The translations under genes and the position numbers were made by a program. Of a DNA stretch of 43,399 nt, positions 6,547 through 31,500 are shown one piece after another (positions within the stretch are counted from its first letter, which is position 1; the number at the start of each line of letters is the position of its first letter). The notes under the pieces were generated by a model that was not told the DNA's origin, made no database searches, and worked only from the letters and a program-made list of their open reading frames with translations. Source of the DNA: Spirosoma sp. (lineage in GTDB: Bacteria > Bacteroidota > Bacteroidia > Cytophagales > Spirosomataceae); assembly GCA_014377625.1 (NCBI GenBank), contig JACMPG010000317.1, positions 1 through 43,399 on the forward strand, read 5' to 3'.

Positions 6547-7146
6547 TCAGCCAACCAGCCAGATACGATCTTCTTCGGCCCCCTGCTCAGTCCATTCTAC
6601 CCGTACCCGCTGTGACTCCAGCGTGTTCACGCGTTTGCCGGTATAATCGGGCCGGATGGGCAGGTCGCGGTTGTATCGCCGGTCAATGAGCACCAGCAAT
6701 TCCACCGAGCGGGGACGGCCAAAGGCGGTCATAGCATCGAGCGCGGCCCGCACCATTCGGCCCGTAGCCAGCACATCATCGATGAGAATGACCCGCTTTT
6801 CTTCAATCACAAACGGCACGTTGGTCGTATTAGGGCGCAGGGGCGTATCGCGCCGTCGGAAATCGTCGCGGTAGAATGTAGCATCCAGGTAACCCAGCGG
6901 CACGCCCGGCGAGTCCACGCCGGGCAGCGACTTATTTCCGGGCGAGTCTGCGCCGGGCGAGTCCACGCCGGCCCGGATGCGGTTCAGTTCACGCACGACC
7001 CGTTCGGCGAAGTAGATACCGCGCGGCTGCATACCGAGTACGACGGTATCGGCAAAATCCTGATGGTTTTCGATGAGTTGCTGGGCCAGTCGGCTCACAA
7101 CGATTTCGAGCAGAGGGCTGGCCAGAATCAGGCGTTGTTGGTTCAT
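6547..7146 (-). CDS. pyrR: PyrR-like phosphoribosyltransferase with an in-frame GVDSPG-type insertion
   Basis: PRTase motif RVILIDDVLATGRMVRAALDAM and C-terminal LVLIDRRYNRDLPIRPDYTGKRVNT. Insert AGVDSPGADSPGNKSLPGVDSPGV. Confidence 0.88.
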   Translation of the reverse strand: MNQQRLILASPLLEIVVSRLAQQLIENHQDFADTVVLGMQPRGIYFAERVVRELNRIRAGVDSPGADSPGNKSLPGVDSPGVPLGYLDATFYRDDFRRRDTPLRPNTTNVPFVIEEKRVILIDDVLATGRMVRAALDAMTAFGRPRSVELLVLIDRRYNRDLPIRPDYTGKRVNTLESQRVRVEWTEQGAEEDRIWLVG

Positions 7147-28546: not shown

Positions 28547-31500
28547 TCAGGCAGCCGGCAGGTACACATCAAACCGTGCGCCTTTGTTTAGCTCACCGGT
28601 AGCCGTAATAAAGCCGTTATGATTGGCAACGATTTTCTGCACAGTGGCTAACCCAATGCCGGTGCCGGTGTATTGTATTTTGCTGTGCAGACGCTGGAAA
28701 ACCTCAAATATCTTTTCGCTGTATTTAGCATCAAAGCCAATGCCGTTGTCCGTGATGGTCAGGTGGTAATAGACTTTTTCGGGCAACAGCGTTCCGTTCG
28801 CGAATTTACCCCCGGTTGTCAGTACACTCGTTATCGTGATATGAGGGGGTACGTCAGGATTGGAAAATTTAAGCGCGTTGCCAATCAGGTTTTGTAGCAG
28901 CTGGCGAAACTGAAACACAATGACAGGGGCGGTGCCGAGTCCGGTCGCGTCGATAGTGGCGTGTTTTTCGGCGATGGGTTCGCTTAGTTCGCTGACGACT
29001 TCCTGAACCAGCCCGCTCAGGTCGGTGATCTCAAATATTCGTTCTTCGGTGCTCAATTGGGAGAAAGCCAGCAAATCATGAATCAGTTGCTGCATTCGTC
29101 CGGCGGCTTTTTGGATGCGCCCGAAATAATCCCTGCCGCTGTCGGTCAGGGTTTGATGTTCTTTATCGAGGATGCGACTGGCTAAGGTTTGTATTTTGCG
29201 GAGCGGCTCCTGTAAATCGTGGCTCGATACGTAGGTGAAGGCTTCCAGCTCTTTATTCACCTGTTGCAGGGTTTCATTAGCTTTCTGTAAGTCCTGAGTT
29301 CGCTTCATCACGGCTATTTCCAGGGCTTCCTGTTGGGCTTTCTGCTCCTGAATTTCGGTGTCGGTGCTGATCCACAGGGTTTGTTGATCGTATGCGTTTT
29401 TTTGCGAGATAGCCCGGCTGAGGTGCCACTTATACCCCCCGTTCCGGTCCAGAAACCGGTGTTCCGTCTCGAGTTCTGTACCGGTGCTAATGGAATGTTG
29501 CCAGCGCTTTCTGGTTTCTTCCAAATCGTCGGGATGAATAATTTTTTCCCAGCCCCAGTCTTTCAGGTCTTCAAACGAAAGGCCGGTGTAGTTAAACCAG
29601 GTTTTATTGAAATAAGTGACGTTGCCGTAGGCATCGGCGGCCCACACTTTCTCCGGCATGGCATTGGCGATAAATTCAACGCGCTCCTGCGCCTGCCGTT
29701 CAACTCGCCGGGCTTTGGTGGCTAACGTTATATCCTCAATCGAAAGCAGAATTAACCGTTCAATATTGGTTTCGCTTCGAATTTCACGGGCATTCAACAG
29801 CATGACCCGCTCCTCAATGACTGGAAACGTATGGGTCATTTCAAAATCCGTAATCGTCGATTTTTCGGGCAGTATTTTTTCAAGCAGTACGCGCAGCTCG
29901 GCTATATTCCATTGGGCATTACCCAGTTCGTACAGGAAAGCCCCTTCGGTTTCGCCTTCCCTGACCTTGAAGGTTGTGTAAAAAGCCGCGTTCGCCGTTT
30001 TAATCCGCAGGGTAGCATCCAGCACCAGGAATGGCCCCCGCATGGTCGCAATAATGGCTTCGGCATAATTGCGGGCCGCTATTACCTGCTGATTCAACCC
30101 AGTGATTTCCTGATTGACCACCGTCAGTTCTTCATTGGTGCTTTGCAGCTCTTCTTTGCCCGTTTCCAGTTCTTCGTTCAGGCTCTGCAATTCTTCGCTG
30201 CCGCTCAGCAGCTCTTCGTTGGCACTTTGCAGTTCTTCATTGACGGCCTCCTGATCCTGGGTGATGCCGCGCATGTCTTCACGGGTCTGGGCCAGGTCCC
30301 GCTCCAACTGGGCGATCCGCAGGTCTTTGTCGTCTTTTTTCGGCTTTGTTTTGGCTTTCTGCGGGTCACTGTCGGCGGGGATGGTAGTGGGTAGAGCCGG
30401 GTGAAACAGAATCAGGTAATGCGGGTCAACCATATTGGGCAGCGGCAGGGCTTCGATGGAAATGGTCTCTAAGCTGCCGTTGACCTCCAGGGGAATATGG
30501 TCCTTGATAACCGTTACCTGCTCTTTTCTGACCTTATGCAGCAGGTTACGCAGTTCAAACGCCAGCCCGTGCTTGGCCAGGAGTAATACATTATGGGTGG
30601 GCTTGCCGGATGCCTGGGCTAAATAAGGCGCAGTGATGCCCCGAAAATGCACAATGTCCAGAGCCTCGTTGACCACTACACCCGCTGGTGAGTAATGGCT
30701 GAGAATCAACTCATCGGCTATTTTTTGAAAGTCCGTACGCAAGGTTTCGGTGGTGGGCGTAGCCCGGTTGATCGGTGGCTTGCTGCGCTGAACGGACTCG
30801 GACATAAACCGGCTGAGGCCATCCTTGCGGGTGAATAATTTACTGGTCTTAGCGGCAAGCACGAACAGGTCAGGTACATTGCCGACGGTTTCTGATTTAC
30901 CCAGCAGTAAAAAGCCAGTTGGGTTTAAGGCATAATGGAACGTGGTAAATGCCTTTTTTTGCAGGTAGGGTTCCAGATAAATCAGCACGTTGCGGCAACT
31001 GATAAAATCGAGTTTACCAAAGGGCGGGTCTTTCAGGAAATTGTGTACGGCAAACACGCACATATCCCGGATGGATTTATTGATCTGGTAGCTGCCATTG
31101 CTCCTGGTAAAGAATTCCTGCAGCCGTTGGGGCGATACGGCCTCGACTTCGTTTTTTGCATAGATACCCGTGCGGGCTTTGGCAATGGCGGGTTCGCTTA
31201 AATCGCTGGCAAAAATTTGCACCCGTTCCGGCGGCTGATTGCCTAAGAATTCTTTCAGGCACATCGCAATGGAGTACGCTTCCTGACCCGTGCTACACCC
31301 CGCCACCCAAATCCGGATGGGTTCTCCGGCGGGTTTATTTTTCAGGATGAGCGGAAAAACCGTTTCACATAAATTGTCGAATACGGGGTGGTCCCGAAAA
31401 AATGACGTGACGGGAATCAGCAGGTCCTGGTATAAAACATCCTGCTCTGGTTTATGATCCCGCAGATAGGTGAGATAGTCCGCAGGATTCTCGGTTTTGG

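Follow-up and report, generated by a model that had tools for sequence, protein, structure and literature searches.

An insert in the pyrR gene of a Spirosoma sp. belongs to a family of very small dispersed repeats that spans the genus. The unit of this family is a 15-bp module with the consensus GGCGARTCCACGCCG, flanked by CCSGGC and occurring singly or in tandem; its conserved part, TCCACGCCGGGC, is asymmetric and is preceded mostly by a GAA or GAG codon. We put at about even the chance that the whole explanation developed below is correct, namely, a 15-bp repeat family that spreads by enzyme-free copying, lengthens by slippage, and is filtered by the tolerance of the host proteins.

The pyrR insert and the repeat family to which it belongs

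The window (the whole 43,399-nucleotide stretch of DNA that was analyzed) contains the following features at the pyrR locus:

6547 to 7146, minus strand: pyrR open reading frame, bifunctional PyrR/uracil phosphoribosyltransferase family, 199 amino acids versus 179 in relatives
6905 to 6973, minus strand: inserted stretch, net +60 bp (4 × 15) relative to orthologues, encoding GVDSP-GADSP-GNKSLP-GVDSP
6904 to 6925, no strand assigned: perfect palindromic copy GCCCGGCGAGTCCACGCCGGGC, 8-bp arms and 6-nucleotide loop, from sequence match and fold
6908 to 6921, plus strand: unit core 1, GGCGAGTCCACGCC, read on the coding strand as GVDSP, within the perfect 22-bp palindrome
6941 to 6954, plus strand: unit core 2, diverged near-copy GGCGAGTCTGCGCC, GADSP, from sequence match
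6956 to 6969, plus strand: unit core 3, GGCGAGTCCACGCC, GVDSP, 15 bp from core 2 and in tandem register with it

The original prediction described a palindromic unit present in pyrR in about three near-copies, translated by the open reading frame as RAGVDSPGADSPGNKSLPGVDSPGV. Both observations were confirmed, with three near-copies of GGCGAGTCCACGCC in the gene. The window PyrR is 86 to 91% identical to 25 Spirosoma orthologues and matches the solved PyrR structures 1a3c, 1non, and 4p81. Between RELNR and PLGYLDATFYRDD it carries IRAGVDSPGADSPGNKSLPGVDSPGV, whereas 24 of the 25 aligned relatives (179 residues each) have the empty site RELNR-xLGxxV-PLGYLDATFYRDD. The window protein is therefore longer by 20 residues (60 bp, or four 15-bp steps), with the reading frame preserved as predicted. 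The variability of this loop, which in the sole exception among the aligned orthologues (G033) is 5 residues longer by an unrelated extension, would fit an insert that is normal for PyrR or that arose in pyrR alone by chance tandem duplication. This reading is refuted by the 179-residue form of the other relatives and by the presence of the same word at more than 100 other gene sites, and we give it virtually no credence. The pattern named beforehand as contrary to a repeat insertion, an insert conserved in distant PyrR proteins with other genomic copies absent, was not what we found.

The suggestion that the insert forms a loop agrees with an AlphaFold2 model (26-row alignment), in which residues 62 to 79 are predicted to be unstructured (pLDDT < 50) between a helix (residues 42 to 59) and a strand (residues 84 to 87). 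Because the mean pLDDT of the model was 62.6, we used its loop assignment alone. On this model, the insert lengthens the loop between the helix end at residue 59 and the strand start at residue 84, probably with neutral effect.

The palindrome proved less general than proposed. Perfect 8-bp arms are present in the copy at 6904 to 6925 and absent from the other pyrR copies; genus-wide, stems of at least 8 bp were found at 7 of 129 sites, and 107 of the 129 have only 4-bp GGCG/CGCC arms. The basic unit is not a 22-bp palindrome, as had been assumed, but the 15-bp module, and Tandem Repeats Finder detected a 15-bp period at 6938 to 6971. As DNA, the first pyrR palindrome folds into a hairpin with an 8-bp stem (−11 kcal/mol, z = −4.5, 0 of 200 shuffles as good), whereas the RNA of the 77-nucleotide pyrR stretch is unremarkable against shuffles (z = −1.2). 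An RNA hairpin function was accordingly rejected, hairpins being strong for perfect palindromes only. Elsewhere in the window (30125 to 30242) lies a tandem array unrelated to the 15-bp unit, with a 21-bp period, about 5.6 copies, and 68% matches.

Further copies were sought in the same genome, as the original prediction had proposed. The 22-mer (≤3 mismatches) occurs 19 times and its reversed pattern 0 times, and the 14-bp core GGCGARTCYACGCC has 24 exact copies versus 1 for the control, which excludes chance. Exact cores number about 200 in 33 of 36 Spirosoma genomes, versus about 9 for the reversed control; since these site counts rest on one core pattern, diverged units are undercounted. 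Arrays reach eight units (in S. utsteinense). One gene (L256; G019:C1:486810-489840) carries two units head to head, PGVDSPGESTPG, with both orientations adjacent. The fragmentation of the source assembly (G000; 378 contigs, 85% complete) might point to an assembly or adapter artifact. However, the word lies at orthologous positions in independent genomes, including the single-contig G003, G016, G018, and G032, and it appears in 15-bp steps and in two frames. These orthologous-site comparisons refute an artifact, the likelihood of which we consider negligible.

A 20-mer (≤1 mismatch) searched for in 292 genomes of the order was present in 3 of 116 genera, all three in the Spirosomataceae; frequencies outside this family were sampled only. 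Named records with the unit outside Spirosoma include Rudanella and Fibrisoma. Phage carriage was rejected, as the 20-mer was not found in IMG/VR contigs. A mobile family crossing phyla was likewise rejected: arrays in Paraburkholderia are only sporadic and often use other codons, so that dispersal seems characteristic of Spirosoma and genera close to it. The many single exact matches in Actinomadura, Nocardioides, Streptomyces, and Halobacteriales are probably chance occurrences in GC-rich DNA. Within Paraburkholderia, tandem copies of the 15-bp word lie at what is seemingly one orthologous gene junction (L119, L136, L141, and L161), where they end one open reading frame as GESTPGESS-stop and overlap the ATG of the next. 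In two further Paraburkholderia loci (L116 and L120), an orthologous hydrolase-like loop has grown with GVDSPG, GVESPG, or GVEAPG 15-bp units, from two or three to many.

Coding frames and DNA-level identity of the unit

For each of the 129 distinct sites, a codon model, itself trained on this DNA, served to score the flanks in all six frames. Among the 93 clearly coding sites, the unit is read as GESTP in 45 and, on the other strand, as GVDSP in 42, with 6 sites shared by the remaining four frames (P ≈ 2 × 10^−34 against 2/6). Of the 36 sites with a less clear assignment, nearly all are in protein tails or linkers, mostly in the same two frames. Judged from the flanks of the 129 sites, about 1 of them (L240) looks intergenic, where 17 would be expected by length and 10 by the supply of CCSGG. 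Stop codons are absent from all six frames of the unit, and the skew therefore stems from either selection or the way in which units insert. Genes contain CCSGG words in every one of the three frames (590/728/826); the supply of targets thus fails to account for the skew, a result that favors selection. The near-absence from intergenic DNA exceeds what a purely neutral, paste-anywhere process predicts. Several matches in the other four frames resemble ordinary conserved protein sequence, for example, AIHQASPRRAGSFVAVNCSAL, which we take to be a sigma-54 activator, and LWRGFAIRDG, presumably DJ-1-like. In a histidine kinase gene (L100; G011:C543:6605-9633, approximately 1485 to 1530) with a 3-unit array, the frame of the left flank is RIHAG and that of the right flank GESTP. 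Because its flanks are in different frames, the gene appears frameshifted at the insert, and the element may here have broken its host gene.

Both favored peptides are short, turn-forming, hydrophilic spacers, and the inserts add putative, harmless-looking loops to ordinary protein genes. Selection at the protein level for a Gly-x-Ser-Thr-Pro or Gly-Val-Asp-Ser-Pro linker, with DNA identity as a by-product of codon bias, would account for the use of two of six frames by spacer-like peptides, and Paraburkholderia has comparable 15-bp arrays written in other codons (GGCGTNTCGACGCCC). The choice of synonymous codons largely refutes it. A search of the 36 genomes for GGN-GAR-TCN-ACN-CCN-GG listed 150 places, of which about 128 (approximately 85%) use GGCGARTCYACGCC; with tandem copies counted once, about 100 sites have this word and 21 do not. 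Codon usage predicts approximately 1.2% for GGC-GAR-TCC-ACG-CCG. That some 85% of GESTPG sites share one word when about 1% would be expected indicates copying at the DNA level. Moreover, GVDSP is the exact reverse complement reading of the GESTP word, and orthologous loops swap between the two. We therefore regard linker selection as highly improbable.

Insertion events in orthologues and a proposed route of spread

Host genes (assigned with Pfam) include those for NuoL, NuoC, a flavin adenine dinucleotide (FAD)-dependent oxidoreductase, a ROK protein, an FGGY kinase, methylmalonyl-CoA mutase, DUF1501, and PyrR. Relative to empty orthologues, precise gains of 5 residues each were found in NuoL, the FAD-dependent oxidoreductase, ROK, and NuoC, and a gain of up to 10 residues was found in methylmalonyl-CoA mutase. 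In NuoL, LNL-PGGGW of the relatives shown becomes LNL-PGEST-PGGGW; the relatives already read CTG CCG GGC or CTG CCG GGT, so that CCGGG stands on both sides of the new DNA. In the protein IIDFPGKPGFWFENP..., the site is empty in G017 (GCA TCA GGT GAA TGG), and the same codons hold GESTP in G003 and G027 and GVDSP in G020. Another empty site, related to this one, is GGCGAATGG (G005 and G008), which has 7 bases in common with the unit start GGCGAATCC.

Between related species, a given loop can differ in the orientation of its units or in their number. Unit number ranges from 1 to 6 between orthologues, as in the KKT-GESTP loop of G003 (6 units), G027 (4), and G004 (1). Where orthologues differ in orientation at one site, separate insertions could be responsible instead of inversion. 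The DUF1501 loop, empty (SPGENP) as CCCGGCGAA in G020 and CCGGGCGAG in G007, is filled elsewhere by one or more units in either orientation (GESTP or GVDSP) or of a sister type (GNSMP, GTSMP, or GASTP). These sister units, GGC-AAC/ACC/GCG-TCC-AYG-CCG (GNSMP and GTSMP) together with GASTP, occupy the same insertion point (L438 and L442 to L445) and suggest that the family is wider and that one codon of each unit is free to vary.

We propose that the unit may spread without a transposase of its own. In this scheme, a strand that is being synthesized or has broken, and whose end is CCSGGC(GAA), would pair with the matching short sequence in an existing copy, copy 15 bp, and return (template switching); replication slippage could then generate the tandem arrays. 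Either orientation would be possible because the ends, which contain CCGG, are nearly symmetrical. Entry in 15-bp multiples never disturbs the frame, and protein tolerance would purge insertions in other frames or outside loops. Template switching by microhomology is a reading of end states in present-day sequences, and an unrecognized enzyme could give the same products. Against this route, a clear CCSGGC is missing at some empty sites, namely, that of pyrR and, in most relatives, that of the FAD-dependent oxidoreductase.

The original prediction had called the repeat REP/MITE-like, a label that does not suit a 15-bp tandem unit whose family is almost wholly intragenic and whose copies are mostly poor palindromes. 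Transposition of a miniature mobile element by an encoded enzyme (RAYT/Y1 or an unrecognized recombinase), with the 15 bp being the element or the element plus a target duplication, would nevertheless explain the precise insertions, the single consensus word, the two orientations, and the apparent CCGGG duplication at NuoL, all of which look transposition-like; Y1 transposases are also present in 29 of the 36 genomes. Against it, copy number is independent of the Y1_Tnp count (Spearman's ρ = 0.04, P = 0.81), genomes without any Y1_Tnp (G002, G018, G021, and G031) still have 5 to 8 copies, the unit is found at 0 of 30 transposase loci examined, the GTAG/CGTC tag is absent, and the copies are intragenic palindromes mostly of 4-bp stem. 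With neither correlation nor adjacency, RAYT/Y1 transposase was rejected as the mobilizer, and we judge a mobile element of any such kind unlikely.

Returning to enzyme-free copying, we advance a bolder form of it only tentatively: a transposase-free, self-spreading 15-bp word may act as natural pentapeptide insertion mutagenesis, entering CCSGGC sites genome-wide by microhomology, blind to orientation, and serving as a standing source of loops in Spirosoma, Rudanella, and Fibrisoma, with sporadic arrays in Pseudomonadota.

Comparison with known repeat systems

Literature searches for GESTPG, GVDSPG, and the 14-mers returned no matches, and those for Spirosoma repeats and in-frame minisatellite dispersal returned nothing relevant; a 15-base word at more than 100 gene sites, in either orientation and in multiples of five residues, is thus undescribed in the literature searched. 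In-frame dispersal of repeats in working genes has hitherto been reported as a Rickettsia specialty, with elements about 10 times longer. Because the Spirosoma unit is five codons long, keeps frame by length alone, and uses both strands, and because comparison of orthologues across 36 genomes reveals its gains, losses, and flips, the enzyme-free spread of very small repeats and their supply of new protein loops become directly testable in culturable environmental bacteria.

Rickettsia palindromic elements (RPEs; Ogata et al. 2000, 2002) comprise ten families of about 150 bp and, as summarized in PMC10969869, occur in frame within genes that are unrelated and mostly functional, at fold-compatible positions. 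The Spirosoma unit is likewise dispersed in frame within genes of unrelated function, but it is 15 bp (5 residues) long, tandem, present in both orientations, and found in Bacteroidota, and its 4-bp arms at 107 of 129 sites differ from the long palindrome of a 100- to 150-bp element. The cyanobacterial small dispersed repeats (SDRs) that Elhai et al. reportedly described in 2008 as "very small mobile repeated elements" are said to be about 20 to 27 bp and mostly intergenic or in RNA-gene loops. Likened by description, these are also very short and apparently mobile with no known transposase, and the Spirosoma word, too, has reached empty sites without a known enzyme; the SDRs are not, however, a 15-bp codon-multiple tandem unit.

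REPs (REP/REPIN elements and GTAG/CGTC palindromes) are 20 to 60 bp long and extragenic with a minority in open reading frames, number hundreds per genome, carry a tag, and are often RAYT linked (PMC3116915, PMC3733652). The Spirosoma unit shares with them a short, GC-rich sequence with partial dyad symmetry and departs in size, location (about 1 of 129 sites looks intergenic), copy number, and RAYT (Y1) association, and GTAG/CGTC tetranucleotides were not found in the consensus GGCGARTCCACGCCGGGCG or its flanks. Nor do gains of precisely 15 bp resemble miniature inverted-repeat transposable elements (MITEs), with their 70 to 300 bp, terminal inverted repeats of 15 to 30 bp, and parent insertion sequence. 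The palindromic amphipathic repeat coding sequence PARCEL is a domain repeat that varies in sequence and occurs mainly in membrane proteins (PMC2996958); like the Spirosoma unit it is a tandem palindromic coding repeat scattered over distant taxa, whereas ours is a near-identical 15-bp word in housekeeping genes. As in intragenic minisatellites (variable-number tandem repeats), tandem number varies among relatives, but the Spirosoma unit is also dispersed to new genes. Taken together, these comparisons place it among the very small dispersed repeats, since it works like RPEs and SDRs, its nearest counterparts, while departing from RPEs in size and palindrome and from REPs in extragenic location, tag, and RAYT link. 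Within that group, and set apart from the SDRs by description, its distinguishing mark is a 15-bp, codon-multiple unit.
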